This document shows, piece after piece, positions 4,701-57,918 of a stretch of 64,000 bases of DNA. The notes beneath the pieces are model-generated. The model saw only the letters and a program-made list of their open reading frames with translations, made no database searches and was not told the DNA's origin. The stretch spans positions 186,001-250,000 of the forward strand of contig JAJRSF010000038.1 of the NCBI GenBank assembly GCA_024278935.1, written 5' to 3'. The translations under genes and the position numbers were made by a program. The stretch comes from Candidatus Zixiibacteriota bacterium. GTDB lineage: Bacteria; Zixibacteria; MSB-5A5; GN15; FEB-12. Positions within the stretch are counted from its first letter, which is position 1; every line of letters begins with the position of its first letter.

Positions 4701-4782
4701 TGCGGAAGGCGGGACTTGAACCCGCATACCCTAAGGCACTAACCCCTCAAGCTAGCGTGTCTACCAGTTCCACCACTCCCGC
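4701..4782 (-). tRNA. tRNA-Leu (anticodon GAG)
   Basis: Minus-strand cloverleaf. The acceptor GCGGGAG pairs with CTTCCGC plus discriminator A. The anticodon stem CTAGC/GTTAG encloses loop TTGAGGG with anticodon GAG. A class II variable arm is present, and the T-arm reads GCGGGTTCAAGTCCCGC. The 3' CCA is not encoded. It starts 18 bases after the secG stop on the same strand, the same arrangement as secG-leuU (tRNA-Leu GAG) in E. coli, and was probably cut from a joint transcript. Confidence 0.95.
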
Positions 4783-10545: not shown

Positions 10546-10690
10546 TGCCTATGCCGATAGGAAGTCGTAAATATACGCAAAAACTAGCTACTTTTCTTCC
10601 GATGAATTGGCTCTACCATTCAAGCTCAATTAAATCAAATTATCTATCAATACAGCCTATAATTAGGTTATTTCCTGAAATGAGAGTCAG

Positions 10691-13554
<2,864 letters not shown>

Positions 13555-23129: not shown

Positions 23130-23975
23130 ATGCAAATAATCCGTTCCATTAAAAAAATCCAATCGCTCACAAGGCAACTTGCCTCTGACGGTAAAAGAAT
23201 CGGACTGGTGCCAACAATGGGGTTCCTACACGACGGGCATCTTTCTCTCATCAAACGAGCTTTAAAAGATTGCGATATTGTCATCACGACGATTTTTGTC
23301 AATCCGACCCAGTTTTCCCAAGGGGAAGATTTAAGCAAATACCCTCGGGATGAAAAAGGGGATATCCAAAAGATAAAATCAGCAGGCGGAACTATTGTTT
23401 TTATCCCGAAGGTTTCTGATATCTACCCTGACGATTTTGACTCATCGGTTGAGGTCTTGTCGCTTACCCAAACACTTGAGGGAGAGTCTCGCCCGACGCA
23501 TTTTGATGGTGTCACAACGATTGTCGCAAAGTTGTTTAATATGACCCGTCCTGACATAGTTGTATTTGGACTCAAAGATTATCAGCAGGCGATGGTCTTA
23601 AAAAAAATGTCGACTGATTTAAACTACCCTATCAAGTTTATCATTGCTCCGACGGTTCGGGAAAAAGATGGGCTGGCGATGTCATCACGTAATAAATATT
23701 TCAACGAAGCAGAGCGGCAGGAAGCACTCTGTTTGAGTTACGCTTTAAAAACTGCCAAGCAGATGGTCAAGGCAGATATCAAAGATTGCAAACTGATTCA
23801 AAAAGAGATGAAAGCAGTTATCAAAGCGACCTGCAAAACTGCTAAGATAGATTATATAGCATTCACCGATTTTAATTCTTTAGCTCCTACAAAAGTTGTA
23901 GTCAAAAACACAATCTGTTCACTTGCTGTGCGACTCCACAATGTCCGCCTCATTGATAATTTGAAACTAATGTAG
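23130..23975 (+). CDS. panC: Pantothenate synthetase
   Basis: Joins pantoate and beta-alanine using ATP in pantothenate (CoA precursor) synthesis. The 281 residues are of family length. Signatures seen are PTMGFLHDGHLSLIKRA (HIGH-type ATP site), VNPTQFSQGEDLSKYPR, GESRPTHFDGVTTIVAKLF, FGLKDYQQAMVLKKM and the KMSKS-like SSRNKYF. No SD precedes the ATG (see the promoter entry). panD, the enzyme supplying beta-alanine, lies 5.5 kb downstream on the same strand. The last 28 bases of the gene are repeated at 26168-26196. Confidence 0.97.
   Translation: MQIIRSIKKIQSLTRQLASDGKRIGLVPTMGFLHDGHLSLIKRALKDCDIVITTIFVNPTQFSQGEDLSKYPRDEKGDIQKIKSAGGTIVFIPKVSDIYPDDFDSSVEVLSLTQTLEGESRPTHFDGVTTIVAKLFNMTRPDIVVFGLKDYQQAMVLKKMSTDLNYPIKFIIAPTVREKDGLAMSSRNKYFNEAERQEALCLSYALKTAKQMVKADIKDCKLIQKEMKAVIKATCKTAKIDYIAFTDFNSLAPTKVVVKNTICSLAVRLHNVRLIDNLKLM
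23948..23975 (+). repeat. Direct repeat, copy 1 (3' end of panC)
   Basis: The last codons of panC, ending in GATAATTTGAAACTAATGTAG, recur 2.2 kb downstream with 20 of 21 bases identical in that core. The two copies bracket the pentapeptide-repeat gene and the palindrome mosaic. Confidence 0.8.
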
Positions 23976-24000
23976 GTTAGTTCTCAAATAATATATATTT

Positions 24001-24058
24001 GTAGGGGCAGACCTATGTGTCTGCCCGAAATAGGGTGAACACATAGGTTCACCCCTAC
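24001..24058. repeat. Double-hairpin palindromic element
   Basis: Outer arms GTAGGGG (24001-24007) and CCCCTAC (24052-24058) enclose two inner hairpins: GGGCAGAC-CTATGT-GTCTGCCC, and GGGTGAAC-ACATAG-GTTCACCC. The two inner loops, CTATGT and ACATAG, are complementary to each other, so the whole element can also fold as one long stem. Beyond it, 24059-24348 holds two small hairpins (AACCCCCACTGGGGGTT; AAAATGGCTTAAGCCATTTT) and no gene that I can support. Confidence 0.85.
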
Positions 24059-24378
24059 TCATGTTTTAAAATGGCTTCGATTCGCATATAAAGGGAACCT
24101 AAAACTCTCATTATTTCTGCTTTTCACGGCATAAATAAAACCCCCACTGGGGGTTACGGAGAAATGGCTTTGCTTGAAAAAATGGCTTAAGCCATTTTCA
24201 CTAATATTTATTGTAGTGATTTTGTGCATACTACTTTCTCTCATATAATTTTGTTTCTCATGCATGAACTGATTTGTGGAATTAGTAAAGAGTAGTAGGG
24301 AATGTGATTGATTTTGTGTAGAGACACTTGTATAATCTACTTTAGATATTGGTCTATTATCAATTATTATGGGTGAGT

Positions 24379-25713
24379 ATGAATAAACAATGCGATGTAA
24401 AATACAACCTTAGTTATGTGAGAGGAATTAATACTTATTCTGAACCTGTTCAATGTAGGCGTCCGGTTTACAAAGAGAATAAGTGTATTTGTCATTTCAA
24501 TTCAAAAGATAAACCTATTGAAAAAATAATTGCATTTATTAGAGCAATGGAGCATCATAAAAATATTGATTGTTCATATTTTGTCTTCCCCGAAAGTGAT
24601 TTTATCTTTCCTATTGCTATTAAAAAAAAGATATTCTTTGATAATTCTATATTTTATGGTAATGCAAATTTTCGTGGACAACAGTTCACCAACTTTGCAT
24701 CTTTTCGATCAGTAAATTTTTATGGGGAAGCAGACTTTGGAGATGATAGTAATCCTTATGAGAAACAAACTAAATTTAGTGATACTGTAGTTTTTTCGAA
24801 TACAACATTTCATAAAAGAACTTCGTTCAGGTCCTGTATATTTGGTAAGAATCCAGAGTTTTTTGGTACAATATTTAAAGATATACTTGTTTTTGCATGG
24901 TGTAAATTTATTTACGATTACCCTAAGCCTATTTTATTTAATAATGTTGAATTTCAAAATAATACAGATTTTCAATTAGAAATCAATGGAGAAATTCCCG
25001 GCATAGAATTCAGTTCATGTAATTTAGAAGGGTTGAACTTTTCTACATTACCTAAAGATTATATCCCAATTATTTTCAAAGATATAAAAAAATGGAATGA
25101 AAAGAAAAAGTGGTATCATTTTAATAGAAATAAAATAAATGATGAATCTGATGCTAATAAGAATCCAATTATTTTAATTAGTTTATATCGGTATTTAGAA
25201 AAGTATTTTTATACGAACTCAGATCCAAGTTTAGCAAAAGATTTTCGTATTGGACATTTAATAGCTTTAAGAAAAGATAAAAATTACAATGGCATTTCAA
25301 AATTTATAAATTTTATTTATGACTCAACCTCAAAGTTTGGTATGTCAATTTGGAGACCAATTACAATATTGTTATTTACGCTAATTATCTTTCCTCTAGC
25401 TCTTTTATTTAGTGGCATTAGTATTCCTGTCGTTAAAGGTAAAGAAGTTCAAACAAAAGATGTAAATTATGAAATAACTAATACTTATCCAACAATAGAA
25501 CTTTACTCCGAATTTTGGAGTGATTATAGAAATTGTTTTATATTAAATATATCAATATCGACTTTAGATAGAAATAATAAATTCTCGCCATTACCCAATA
25601 GTGCATCTAGAATCATTTTGATAGTAGAAACTTTAATAATAATAATTTATGTTTCTTTCTTAGTTATTGCTGTAAGACGAAAATTTACACCTGTAAAACC
25701 AATTAGCGAGTAA
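24379..25713 (+). CDS. Pentapeptide-repeat membrane protein with C-terminal channel-like segment
   Basis: About 444 residues. The N-terminus has a small Cys/His cluster (CRRPVY, then CICHF). Residues about 75-215 are pentapeptide-type repeats with Phe at the centre (for example FYGNANFRGQQFTNFASF), forming a right-handed quadrilateral helix. A loop and two or three membrane helices follow, the last pair resembling the end of an Ion_trans_2 pore (IILIVETLIIIIYVSFLVIAVRRKF). Start ATG 24379 follows GGGTGAG; a longer reading from 24349 is less likely. The gene is strikingly AT-rich and stands alone in an island bounded by direct repeats, so recent transfer is likely. The channel role is inference. 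Confidence 0.75.
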   Translation: MNKQCDVKYNLSYVRGINTYSEPVQCRRPVYKENKCICHFNSKDKPIEKIIAFIRAMEHHKNIDCSYFVFPESDFIFPIAIKKKIFFDNSIFYGNANFRGQQFTNFASFRSVNFYGEADFGDDSNPYEKQTKFSDTVVFSNTTFHKRTSFRSCIFGKNPEFFGTIFKDILVFAWCKFIYDYPKPILFNNVEFQNNTDFQLEINGEIPGIEFSSCNLEGLNFSTLPKDYIPIIFKDIKKWNEKKKWYHFNRNKINDESDANKNPIILISLYRYLEKYFYTNSDPSLAKDFRIGHLIALRKDKNYNGISKFINFIYDSTSKFGMSIWRPITILLFTLIIFPLALLFSGISIPVVKGKEVQTKDVNYEITNTYPTIELYSEFWSDYRNCFILNISISTLDRNNKFSPLPNSASRIILIVETLIIIIYVSFLVIAVRRKFTPVKPISE

Positions 25714-26167
25714 AGATATTCACATACTTGGTTGGTTCAATGCTACATGATAAAAAGATGAGATTGCCATTCGCCTAAGCGGAACCGCTAAAGAGCTTTT
25801 AGCTCGTTGAGTTCCTCCCTACGATTCTGCTGAGGGTAAGAGGCTGTTGCTCGTTATTGTACTGGACCCCAGCCTTCGCTGGGAAGGAGTTCAAAAGACT
25901 GGACCCCGTGTCAAGCACGGGGAGGTTTGAGGGAATGACAATAACACACCCCTTAATCCCCTCTTTCAAGAGGGGACAGCCTGCAGGCTGGGAAATCAAT
26001 TATAAAAACAACAATGTTGGATCCTGGATCAAGTCCAGGATGACACGGGGGAGAGGATGACATAGTGAGAGATTGTAGTGTGTTATTGTTTTAACTTCCT
26101 GCTTTCGAAGGAATGGAGGTCAAAAACTAGAGGCATAATGAAGTTGGGAATAACATTACCCCCCCGA
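25714..26167. repeat. Mosaic of short palindromic repeat copies
   Basis: This non-coding stretch holds several stems in a row: CCCAGCCTTCGCTGGG (25868-25883), CCCCGTG-TCAAG-CACGGGG (25904-25922 region), CCCCTCTTTCAAGAGGGG (25958-25975), the perfect palindrome CAGCCTGCAGGCTG (25977-25990) and TCCTGGA-TCAAG-TCCAGGA (26022-26040). GAATGACA or GGATGACA tails recur. The base composition is GC-richer than the surroundings. Open frames here on either strand are by-products of the repeats. A truncated AAGTTGGGAATAACATTA near 26142 echoes the element at 8086. Confidence 0.8.
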
Positions 26168-26196
26168 CGCTTATAGATAATATGAAACTAATGTAG
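26168..26196 (+). repeat. Direct repeat, copy 2 (panC 3'-end remnant)
   Basis: Reads CGC TTA TA-GATAATATGAAACTAATGTAG, matching the panC terminus RLIDNLKLM-stop with one base lost and Leu changed to Met. The following TCCTCAA also resembles TTCTCAA after panC. Only about 30-40 bases are duplicated. Confidence 0.75.
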
Positions 26197-26206
26197 TCCT
26201 CAATTG

Positions 26207-26234
26207 TTGACAAGTAGATAGATTATAGTATCTT
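26207..26234 (+). promoter_or_regulatory. Predicted sigma70-type promoter of the SBBP gene
   Basis: A consensus TTGACA (26207-26212), a 16-base spacer and TATCTT (26229-26234) lie 41 bases before the start codon at 26276. The leader carries a strong Shine-Dalgarno sequence (CGGAGGA). Confidence 0.55.
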
Positions 26235-26275
26235 TATTTCAAAACAATATAAGTATTTTCTAATCGGAGGATTAT

Positions 26276-28693
26276 ATGTATAAGGTTTTGTTAAGTTATG
26301 TTTTTATGATTTTGTTAGTTTTATCAATATCACAAACAGCTTCTGCCAATGATGACCAATCAAGTATTCAGCTCACTAAAAATCTTGCATCAAACAAATT
26401 ATCATTTACTGCTAATCATGGACAATGGGATGAAAATCTGAAATTTCAAGCTAACGCAGGTGGGGCTACTATCTGGTTTAGTACCGATTGTGCCTTTTAT
26501 CAATTTACACGAACTGCAGAATCAAGTAGTGATGACAAACAACCTAAATTTTATGAAACGATGATGATTAAAGCCAAGTTTGTAGGTGCCAAACAAAACG
26601 CACAAATGGTTGGTGTTGACATGATAGATTACAAATGTAATTACTTCATAGGAAACGATAAATCTAAATGGGCGACTGATGTTCCGAATTATAGAGCAGT
26701 GATGTATGAAGAAATATATGACGGGATTGACTTAAAATATTACGGTAATGGCAAACAGATGGAATATGACTTTATTGTTTCACCCGGTGCTGATTTTTCG
26801 CAGATAAAAATTCAATACGAGGGAGCAGAATCTGTTGAAGTAAATGAAAACGGTCAATTAGTTGTAACAACCATTTGGGGTGAGGTTGTTGAGCAACGTC
26901 CAGTAATCTATCAACTAGCTCATAACAATCGTATTCCAATAGAAGGAAAATATATTCTACAAGATGAAAATTCTTTTGGGTTTGAACTAAGTGCTGACTA
27001 TAATTCTGACTTACCCCTTGTTATCGACCCCGTTTTAACTTACAGCACTTACTTAGGAAATGATGATGAAGAGCAAGCGTATAGCATAGCTGTTGATAAT
27101 AATGGGAACGCCATTGTCACAGGTACTACCGTATCTGCTGCATTTCCAACTCTAAATCCATATCAAGTTAATACAGGTCCGGGGGGAGATGTTGTTGTAA
27201 CCAAGCTGAATAATACCGGTGATGCTCTTTTATATAGTACCTATTTAGGAGGCACATCAGGATCAGATTGCGGATACGGAATTGCTGTTGATACAGCCGG
27301 GAATATTTATGTTGGTGGAAGTTCAGGTTCTACAGATTTTCCTGTAATGAACGCAATTCAATCGACTTATGGTGGTGGCTTTAATGATTGTATTATTTTC
27401 AAATTAAATAGTGCCGGCGATTCCCTTTTATTCAGTACTTTTCTTGGAGGTTCTCTGAATGAATTTGTTAATGATCTTGCTATTGATATGCTAGGAAATG
27501 TTTTTATAACAGGTCGCACTAATTCAACTAACTTTCCAATGCAAAATGCATTCCAAAATAGTTTTGGCGGAAATTATGATGCGTATGTTACAAAATTTAA
27601 CTCTGCAGGTGACACTCTTTTATTCAGTAGTTACTTGGGAGGAGCTGATTGGGATCAAGGCATAGGAATTGATGTTGATCAATATGACAATACCTATCTA
27701 ACAGGAATGACAGCCTCTACTGACTTTCCAATGATGAATGCGTACCAGTTACTTATTGGTGGCGGAAATGATGCTTTCATAACAAAAATTGATTCTGCCG
27801 GAACGACTATTCTGTTTAGTACTTATTTTGGTGGTACAAATGATGATGCAGGGTATGCTATAACACTAGATGACAGCAGTAAAATTTATATTACCGGAAA
27901 GACTTTATCTGGGGATTTCCCGACTCAGAATGCTTATCAATCTGTCTATGCCGGTACCAGTGATGTATTCGCTACTAAATTTAATTCAAATGGAGATACA
28001 TTGGTGTACAGTACCTATCTTGGCGGTACTGGTGATGATTATAGTAATGGTATCGCAGTCGATTCTGTGGGGCAGGTTTATATTACAGGTTCAACTCGTT
28101 CAACCGATTTTCCTATTCGAGATGCTTCCCAAGTTGCTAATGGTGGAGCGTATGATGCTTTTGTTAGTGTATTAAGCGATGATGGAAGTGCTCTCTTGGC
28201 TAGCACATATTTAGGCGGTTATGATTGGGATCATGGATACGGAATTGTTCTTACTGATAATCACTCTCAATATATAGCAGGGTATGCTTGGTCAAACAAT
28301 TTTCCAACTGTCAACCCATATCAATCTACTTTTGGTGGTTACACTGATGCCTTTGTCGCCCAATTTAGTATTGTCATCTTAGATGTTTCCGAATATGATA
28401 TTGATAATTTACCATCTGATTTTAAAATGTCGCAAAATTATCCGAATCCGTTTAACCCAACAACAACTATTGAGTTTAATCTGCCGACAAAATCAAATGT
28501 CGCAATCAGAGTTTATAATTTACTTGGGCAAGAAGTAAAGCTACTTGTCGACCAAGAATTTTCAGCAGGTAATTATAAAGTGACTTGGGATGGTACAGCA
28601 TCTGATGGGGTACAAGCAGCAACCGGAATGTATTTCTATCGACTTGAAACAGACCATTTTGTCGAAACAAAAAAGATGTTGTTATTGAAATAA
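26276..28693 (+). CDS. SBBP-repeat beta-propeller protein with T9SS sorting domain
   Basis: An 805-residue exported protein. It has a signal peptide (residues 1-25), an N-terminal domain beginning FTANHGQWDENLKFQ (typical of SBBP proteins), then six or seven repeats of about 55 residues with the pattern LLYSTYLGG...AVDxxGNxYVTGxT...FP, forming a propeller. The C-terminal domain of about 85 residues (QNYPNPFNPTTTIEFNLP, VYNLLGQEV, ATGMYFYRL) is a T9SS type A sorting signal or FlgD-like Ig fold. It should be secreted or surface-bound. The function is unknown; adhesion or carbohydrate binding is possible. Confidence 0.87.
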   Translation: MYKVLLSYVFMILLVLSISQTASANDDQSSIQLTKNLASNKLSFTANHGQWDENLKFQANAGGATIWFSTDCAFYQFTRTAESSSDDKQPKFYETMMIKAKFVGAKQNAQMVGVDMIDYKCNYFIGNDKSKWATDVPNYRAVMYEEIYDGIDLKYYGNGKQMEYDFIVSPGADFSQIKIQYEGAESVEVNENGQLVVTTIWGEVVEQRPVIYQLAHNNRIPIEGKYILQDENSFGFELSADYNSDLPLVIDPVLTYSTYLGNDDEEQAYSIAVDNNGNAIVTGTTVSAAFPTLNPYQVNTGPGGDVVVTKLNNTGDALLYSTYLGGTSGSDCGYGIAVDTAGNIYVGGSSGSTDFPVMNAIQSTYGGGFNDCIIFKLNSAGDSLLFSTFLGGSLNEFVNDLAIDMLGNVFITGRTNSTNFPMQNAFQNSFGGNYDAYVTKFNSAGDTLLFSSYLGGADWDQGIGIDVDQYDNTYLTGMTASTDFPMMNAYQLLIGGGNDAFITKIDSAGTTILFSTYFGGTNDDAGYAITLDDSSKIYITGKTLSGDFPTQNAYQSVYAGTSDVFATKFNSNGDTLVYSTYLGGTGDDYSNGIAVDSVGQVYITGSTRSTDFPIRDASQVANGGAYDAFVSVLSDDGSALLASTYLGGYDWDHGYGIVLTDNHSQYIAGYAWSNNFPTVNPYQSTFGGYTDAFVAQFSIVILDVSEYDIDNLPSDFKMSQNYPNPFNPTTTIEFNLPTKSNVAIRVYNLLGQEVKLLVDQEFSAGNYKVTWDGTASDGVQAATGMYFYRLETDHFVETKKMLLLK

Positions 28694-28854: not shown

Positions 28855-29334
28855 ATGCATAAAAAAGCAACTCATATCAAAATAGAATCACCCGGTGTTA
28901 ATGTTGCCGTGGTCAGAAATACATACGATGGATGGGAATATTTACTCCTCCAAAGAGCAGAACAAGAAACATACAGCGGTTCATGGGGGTTTATGACCGG
29001 CGGAAAACAGGGGGATGAAACAGTCGCCCAAGTTGCCGTGCGTGAATTATACGAAGAAACCCAGTTAGCCCCAAAATCTTTATGGGCAACAGAACATCTT
29101 GTGCAATTCTATGAACCGGAATATGACTCGATCTGGATACTTCCGTTAATTGTCGCAGTTGTTGATGAAACCGCCGAAGTGATACTTTCTGAAGAAAATT
29201 GTGAGTTCAGATGGCTGAAATCAACACGAGCAAAGCATAAAGTAAGTTGGAAAAATCTTTCAACTGCGATAGATAATATTTCAGAAGAGCTTGAGATTTT
29301 CCCTGCTCGCAACTGGGTACAGATTCACGCATAA
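28855..29334 (+). CDS. NUDIX hydrolase
   Basis: A 159-residue NUDIX-fold pyrophosphohydrolase. The NUDIX box reads GGKQGDETVAQVAVRELYEE with the REL-EE core complete at about residues 56-76, and is preceded by a strand with LLLQRAEQETYSGSWGF. The layout resembles dATP pyrophosphohydrolase (NudB-like) proteins, but substrate specificity cannot be read from sequence alone. It is monocistronic, with weak AAGG upstream of ATG 28855. It might clean damaged or excess nucleotides. Confidence 0.87.
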   Translation: MHKKATHIKIESPGVNVAVVRNTYDGWEYLLLQRAEQETYSGSWGFMTGGKQGDETVAQVAVRELYEETQLAPKSLWATEHLVQFYEPEYDSIWILPLIVAVVDETAEVILSEENCEFRWLKSTRAKHKVSWKNLSTAIDNISEELEIFPARNWVQIHA

Positions 29335-29464: not shown

Positions 29465-29818
29465 ATGTTAATATCTATATGTAAGTCAAAAATCCATCGG
29501 GCAACAATAACTGACGCCGACTTAAATTATATCGGCTCGGTTTCCATTGATAAAAACCTTATGGATGCTGCCGATTTAGTTGAATACGAAAAAGTCGCTA
29601 TTGTCAATATCAACAATGGTGAACGGTTGGAAACATATGTCATTGAAGCACCTGCCGGTTCAGGTACGATTGCTTTGAATGGTGCCGCTGCTCGTAAAGG
29701 CTGTAAAGGTGACTTGATTATTATTATCTCTTATGGGCAATTTCACAAAGATGAGCTTGAAGGTTTTAAGCCTGCTTTTGTGCATGTAGACACAAACAAT
29801 AAAGAAATTTCATTTTAA
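29465..29818 (+). CDS. panD: Aspartate 1-decarboxylase
   Basis: Makes beta-alanine from aspartate for pantothenate. The 117-residue pro-enzyme self-cleaves between Gly24 and Ser25 (LNYIGSVSID) to leave a pyruvoyl group, the same position as in E. coli. Other conserved features are SKIHRATITDADLNY, Arg in NGERLETYVI, and GTIALNGAAARKGCKGD. It provides the substrate for panC at 23130; the genes between them are unrelated, so the pathway genes are split here. It is followed after 27 bases by a nucleotidyltransferase gene. Confidence 0.96.
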   Translation: MLISICKSKIHRATITDADLNYIGSVSIDKNLMDAADLVEYEKVAIVNINNGERLETYVIEAPAGSGTIALNGAAARKGCKGDLIIIISYGQFHKDELEGFKPAFVHVDTNNKEISF

Positions 29819-57649: not shown

Positions 57650-57918
57650 GCCTGTGCTAGATGGGGGATTAGTGGCTCCCTGTTACTCGGAAATCCGCTC
57701 TACCGAGGTCGAATTCCCATTTGAGGGTTTGTTTTGATTGGTTGTGATAGTTGAGCAGTATTGATAATTGGGTCTTGTACAACAGAAGCCTGTGAATCCG
57801 GTCAGGACTGGAAGGTAGCAGCCGTAAGTAGTTTCCTTCTGTGTGTTACGAGTTTCCCCGATTTGAGCCAGCTGACTGTTACGCTAGTTGATTCCGATTC
57901 GATTGTGGGTGCACACAA
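57650..57918 (+). ncRNA. ffs: Signal recognition particle RNA, large Bacillus-like type
   Basis: The domain IV hairpin is clear: GGTCAGGACTGGAAGGTAGC, closely matching the universal GGTCAGGYCCGGAAGGAAGC. Upstream, 57653-57740 matches the Alu domain of Bacillus scRNA (TGTGCTAGATGGGG, CCCTGTTACTCGG, AATCCGCTCTACCGAGG, CGAATTCCCA), and the 3' part ends GGGTGCACAC, pairing with the 5' TGTGC. The size is about 265 nt. Exact ends are estimated. It binds Ffh (not in this window) for membrane targeting. A terminator follows directly. Confidence 0.93.

Follow-up and report, generated by a model that had tools for sequence, protein, structure and literature searches.

An R200-bounded accessory-gene island behind panC in a Candidatus Zixiibacteriota genome and a repeated panC tail as its probable junction scar

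The window analyzed here is the whole 64,000-nucleotide (nt) stretch at positions 186,001–250,000 of contig JAJRSF010000038.1 from a deep-branching Candidatus Zixiibacteriota bacterium (assembly GCA_024278935.1), in which panC is followed by an AT-rich island and, at the far edge of that island, by a second, non-coding copy of the panC 3' end. We consider it probable, at about 0.6, that this island is an accessory-gene unit bounded by a repeat of the family R200 and situated in the spacer between panC and a nudix-like gene, and that the panC tail is a scar of the junction. The features on which this reading rests are as follows.

23130–23975, + strand: panC, pantoate–beta-alanine ligase (Pfam PF02569, E = 5e-98); the protein ends LIDNLKLM before the stop
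23949–23975, + strand: repeat copy 1, the final 27 nt of panC with its stop codon
23999–24060, + strand: hairpin repeat resembling repetitive extragenic palindromic (REP) sequences, multicopy in the genome (fold −17.5 kcal/mol, z = −5.4)
24050–24254, + strand: R200 of type 1, forming the left edge of the AT-rich island (profile match of 176.6 bits)
24379–25713, + strand: pentapeptide-repeat gene, the AT-rich cargo (Pfam Pentapeptide_3; 444 aa from the ATG, with an alternative TTG start at 24349)
25779–26045, no strand assigned: mosaic of REP-like palindromic repeats, with parts at 25779–25822, 25899–25943, 25944–26010, and 25992–26045
26122–26158, + strand: decayed member of the ACTGGATCC..AATCAAGTTGGGAATGACATTA repeat family, which stops 11 nt short of copy 2 and folds poorly
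26170–26196, + strand: repeat copy 2, a non-coding panC tail that would read LIDNMKLM before the stop

Comparison of the two tail copies without gaps showed 24 of 27 nt to be identical at a start-to-start spacing of 2221, in agreement with the direct repeats about 2.2 kb apart that had been reported in an initial annotation made from the sequence. Its recurring 21-mer with 20 of 21 identical bases was likewise recovered with a single mismatch (23955–23975 against 26176–26196); chance alone would give 0.01 such matches, and two matches were not obtained in any of 100 shuffles. The similarity that it described on both sides of the 21-mer holds insofar as the ungapped repeat reaches 27 nt, whereas 3' of the stop codon further similarity is weak in a gapped alignment. 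A search of all 3.40 Mb of the genome that tolerated up to 3 mismatches gave no third copy. When the copies are read as codons, they differ by two synonymous changes and one Leu/Met exchange. A panC match was found in 58 of 61 genomes, and among 51 panC ends tallied at ≥60% identity, with that of the window counted in, 43 have ATG at the Leu/Met codon, supporting the scar reading; the CTT codon of copy 2 also occurs in panC of two of the three congeners compared (G002 and G003; the third is G001). Two of the three differences thus look like changes within panC itself, indicating that copy 2 represents an older or different panC end. By this codon comparison, copy 2 is apparently neither a decayed nor a fresh copy of the present panC end and keeps a presumably ancestral Met codon that panC has lost.

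The gene order in relatives is panC-nudix-panD or panC-panD. In the window, panC and nudix lie 4.9 kb apart, the interval being filled by the pentapeptide gene, the repeats, copy 2, and a DUF7948/SBBP gene; pentapeptide and beta-propeller genes between panC and nudix were found in this genome alone among the relatives compared. The genes beyond copy 2 are listed below, and the nudix-like and panD labels are ones that we assume for these two genes.

26207–28693 including promoter-side sequence, + strand: DUF7948/SBBP beta-propeller gene with a C-terminal sorting domain, absent at this place in relatives
28855–29334, + strand: nudix-like gene, the original downstream neighbor of panC (relatives found by sequence)
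29465–29818, + strand: panD (relatives found by sequence)

The pentapeptide protein was matched in 13 of 80 genomes of the order, counting its own, and the three congeners gave no match; no R200 was found in the panC region of G001, G002, or G003, so that the left part of the island is also missing there. Judged from gene order and these absences, the DNA that follows panC was inserted at the end of this gene in this lineage only, and the insertion proposed in the initial annotation is upheld. The same spacer holds other cargo elsewhere: a 300-aa gene on the opposite strand in G002, which we take to be CPBP-like, and a 385-aa gene in G014, presumably Fic-like.

The contents of the island also agree with their first description as an AT-rich pentapeptide-repeat gene with a mosaic of palindromes. 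The gene has about 27% G+C, compared with 36% over 280 kb of the same genome, and the spacer queries 25779–26045 and 23999–24266 had 42 and 36 matches, respectively, within their own genome; the island spacers thus consist of short palindromes in many intergenic copies, one hairpin among them folding strongly. Relatives of the pentapeptide gene were not found by a pattern search of genome contigs, and the protein search gave distant matches, the best with 43% identity in G032 at a different place. The protein had no match in PADLOC. A phage origin of the gene was considered and set aside, no relative having been found in IMG/VR by patterns. The DUF7948/SBBP gene (26276–28693), whose product carries a type IX-like C-terminal sorting domain, is a further newcomer to the panC-nudix spacer; its closest relative in G002 lies elsewhere, and sequence resembling the upstream regions of other SBBP genes in the genus starts about 10 nt past copy 2.

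R200 is a repeat of approximately 170–250 bp, with a consensus extending to about 250 nt, composed of a conserved 5' block, a hairpin, and a palindromic 3' block. An alignment of 10 copies showed compensatory changes in the hairpin (5 pairs with double changes), whereas the automatic structure of a 40-copy alignment retained just 7 pairs, so that the fold is supported in part only. The R200 model had 23 matches in the genome of the window (G000), at least 36 each in G002 and G003, and 9 of lower strength in G001, and the 75 other genomes of the order gave no match; as far as these searches reach, R200 was found only in this genus, to which it appears to be restricted. Further copies were located in the fetched loci L213–L231 and L373–L429. 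The repeat is polar with respect to its surroundings: at the discovery loci, the 3' side was AT-richer than the 5' side for 34 of the 38 copies that could be tested (42 in all), and the same was seen for 26 of the 33 that could be tested (again 42 in all; p = 7e-5) in a later set of 40 stretches of G002 and G003, which is part of the model-match list and was fetched after the polarity had been seen. The means of the two sides at these later loci were 0.350 and 0.395. Seven pairs of neighboring R200 copies were seen; five of them point inward and enclose AT-rich DNA, two are in tandem, and none faces outward. Each inward pair brings together one end of type 1 and one of type 2 (a single end was typed by eye from the alignment), and the five were found in 77 fetched R200 loci, the window having one end only. 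R200 was also considered as a known RNA or as a leader of the cargo gene. Rfam gave no match at gathering scores, and three sub-threshold microRNA-family matches nearby were taken as chance; a leader was ruled out because the cargo genes point either way.

When R200 loci were paired between species, 25 cross-species pairings shared the 5'-side genes, and the pairing output contained eight distinct loci with shared genes on both sides. At seven of these eight, no cargo gene was common between species, and at the eighth, the cargo included one protein pair with 31% identity. At two loci, an empty state, namely R200 without cargo, was present in at least one species, and in the occupied sister the empty-site sequence resumes after the cargo. 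These comparisons show R200 sites to be standing cargo sites whose contents differ by exchange across the genus. By Pfam, the cargo includes restriction-modification genes (an Eco47II endonuclease with a C-5 methylase, and MmeI), two TIR proteins, a DUF4917 protein with a weak AbiH match, a Z1/helicase protein, NucS_C, HNH, DUF2971, and NO VEIN domains, TPR proteins, and C25 peptidases, and many cargo genes had no match. Several of the cargo genes are likely directed against viruses. PADLOC at E ≤1e-5 matched 10 of 30 cargo proteins and 5 of 30 5'-side proteins (p = 0.12, not significant), whereas at 1e-10, a threshold picked afterwards, the counts were 9 of 30 and 2 of 30 (p = 0.02); an enrichment of defense genes in the cargo is no more than suggestive by this measure.

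Individual loci illustrate such contents. In G002, the Eco47II-type endonuclease and the C-5 methylase lie between two inward R200 ends (L389, 1110–3696), and the same locus holds other genes in G000 (L221) and G003 (L381). Another locus has two inward R200 ends in both G002 (L387, 6020–8532) and G000 (L216, 5464–7025), with a TIR protein and a NO VEIN-domain protein as cargo in the former and one 145-aa gene without an assigned function in the latter.

Tail copies were also sought at other gene ends, by comparing the last 45 nt of 1448 predicted gene ends with non-coding DNA up to 3 kb downstream in 114 loci (1.73 Mb) chosen around panC and R200. Four outliers were obtained, a nudix end in G033, the panC ends of G036 and of the window, and a nudix end in G005 (scores of 35, 26, 18, and 17, respectively); the other scores were at most 14, the same as in the reversed control. 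With the fragment 90 to 45 nt before the gene end as the query, one comparable match was found (score of 23, in L082). In G036, G033, and G005, the tail copy lies directly 3' of a small palindromic repeat, at a spacing of 61–64 bp and without cargo. Because tail copies occurred only at panC and nudix ends, mostly beside palindromes, they suggest junction scars.

The G036 panC tails are 64 bp apart with no island between them, and the panC region is 92% identical to that of its sister G068, with a single 21-nt indel between the two there, a copy of panC codons with a shared flanking AATA. The flanks of the neighboring repeat (before REP-B) are compatible with both a gain in G036 and a loss in G068. 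In G036, the panC end is also matched, by eye, at 9 of the 12 nt past the copied block, a likeness partly explained by the start of the next repeat, YTGTAGG. In G033, three copies of the nudix 3' end form tandem 94-bp units (L036, 10330–10620), with the hairpin GGTGGTGTGCCACC ahead of each extra copy. Upstream of panD, G033 (L036, about 10640–10760) and G005 (L038, about 6350–6230) share the conserved AGAGTCTGTTAT...CTAAAGCGCTTGCG, which could be a leader element.

Taken as an R200-bounded unit, the panC island would have arisen when an accessory-gene island landed in the panC-nudix spacer of this lineage, with the order R200, one AT-rich cargo gene, and a pile of small palindromic repeats. 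Its cargo may have been exchanged by recombination with R200 as the constant side, probably through homologous recombination between R200 copies or with incoming DNA; a dedicated recombinase seems less likely. The 27-nt tail could then be a joining scar: it may be what remains of an earlier panC allele whose end was displaced, or a short panC stretch that was copied into the junction during repair beside the palindromic repeats. Recombination between partial copies, which the initial annotation gave as its alternative, fits the presumed ancestral Met codon of copy 2.

Several observations weigh against this reading. No second R200 was found at the far end of the window island. The repeat before copy 2 is decayed and does not fold into a hairpin, unlike that of G033, which weakens the parallel with G033, G005, and G036. 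The excess of non-coding tail copies at panC and nudix ends (4 of 69 against 0 of 1379 other ends, p = 5e-6) was tested post hoc, after the pattern had been seen, and with G033 and G005 counted once, since both may share one event, the value is p = 1e-4. No comparable non-repetitive direct repeat was found around the other R200 islands examined, the sole high flank score (L374) looking like a palindromic repeat in both places. Given the absence of such a duplication at any other R200 island, the scar and R200 may be unrelated, making their link the weakest step of the argument. The source is, moreover, a metagenome-assembled genome.

Among the other explanations, a small element may have entered the panC 3' end by means of a tyrosine integrase that has since been lost, the two tails being its left and right attachment (att) sites. 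The direct repeat lies at the far edge of the island (27 nt, 24 identical) and ends exactly at the stop codon, its differences are mostly silent, as is usual for the comparable repeats left by integrations at gene 3' ends, and copy 2 resembles a panC allele. In this the island is like integrative elements of protein-gene 3' ends, in which a second copy of the gene end lies beyond the foreign DNA; it differs from them in that an integrase is missing and related islands lack matching repeats. Except for the pentapeptide gene, the open reading frames (ORFs) of ≥60 aa in the interval are all at most 68 aa, so no integrase is encoded there, and the initial statement that none remains is confirmed from the ORF list, in which the single long ORF encodes the pentapeptide repeats. 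Tyrosine-integrase matches in 54 genomes of the family were far from panC among the matches listed. The genome has just two copies of the repeat, islands sharing the same left border have no such repeats, and no att repeats were found at the same site in relatives: in the 141 of 142 panC-match loci scanned, a second tail downstream of panC stood out only in the window and in G036, which is represented by two overlapping loci of one place. A panC tail without an insertion, which the initial annotation named as evidence against its own view, is thus present in another genus, 64 bp after panC in G036. The att-like origin that it proposed is not supported; with neither an integrase nor like repeats elsewhere, we rejected it, and consider such an origin quite improbable.

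A more serious competitor, still doubtful in our estimate, is that copy 2 is a short templated duplication produced by template switching or slippage at the palindromic repeats, R200 and the cargo having been added later between the copies as an unrelated event. The cargo-free tail copies at 61–64 bp in G036, G033, and G005 speak for this, as does the difference between G036 and G068 of exactly one 21-nt copy with a shared AATA flank; however, the G036 copy may itself be an older displaced tail, since the 12 nt past its block resemble the panC end, and the copy in the window is 2.2 kb distant. It is also possible, again with less than even odds, that the whole panC end was replaced by homologous DNA that came in with the island, copy 2 being the old panC end of the recipient. 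The Met codon and the CTT codon of G002 and G003 favor this idea and imply that copy 2 branched before the present panC end evolved, whereas the whole of panC has neither anomalous divergence nor a mosaic breakpoint relative to the three congeners, and 27 bases are too short for a tree. Import of the whole panC gene was rejected, there being no divergence anomaly against the three congeners.

Going beyond the R200-bounded unit, one may imagine R200 as the recognition site of a new genome-wide exchange system, in which single, often anti-phage genes would be swapped 3' of R200 by a candidate recombinase or by RecA with dedicated homology, type 1 and type 2 ends would close some units, and the panC island would have recently seeded a new locus. 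We hold this to be rather unlikely. We found no description in the literature of such a repeat-marked system, and several known systems resemble it in part. Minimal mobile elements (MMEs) are reportedly defined by their flanking core genes. Those of Neisseria (Saunders and Snyder 2002, as cited in PMC1538595) are reportedly alike in having conserved flanks and differing accessory genes and in needing no integrase or transposase. Here, by contrast, a dedicated R200 family marks many loci, on one side of the cargo; the same flanks with different cargo were found at seven of the eight two-sided R200 loci and, at panC, between G000 and G002. Integron cassettes are similar in placing single accessory genes, some of them likely for defense, beside a structured repeat, whereas R200 occurs as single copies scattered around the genome, which may be oriented toward one another. 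Cassette arrays were not observed, and five of the seven neighboring pairs are inward rather than tandem and like-oriented.

Miniature inverted-repeat transposable elements (MITEs) and mobile insertion cassettes with terminal inverted repeats recall the five islands with two inward R200 ends, whereas in most islands only one R200 is present, R200 sites without cargo occur, and, the panC tail of the window excepted, no target site duplication beyond repeat-derived matches was found at R200 islands. REP sequences and their associated (Y1) transposases are comparable in that multicopy palindromes fill the island, and their link to the scar is positional only; we know of no REP sequences that carry gene cargo or duplicate gene ends. 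The sole Y1 transposase-family match in the genome (G000:C32:22004-22273, in L368) is separated by about 0.8 kb from a copy of the repeat at 25944–26010 of the window. Elsewhere in the window, Rfam identified a bacterial large signal recognition particle RNA (57652–57916, + strand) and a tRNA (4701–4782, − strand).

Hotspots at which defense and other accessory genes are swapped are usually recognized by their flanking core genes or by an integrase. The panC island is a warning against taking every repeated gene end that borders an AT-rich island for an att site. As a marker of dozens of sites, R200 would allow prediction of where new cargo lands, and its 3' side would be the place to find new defense genes.

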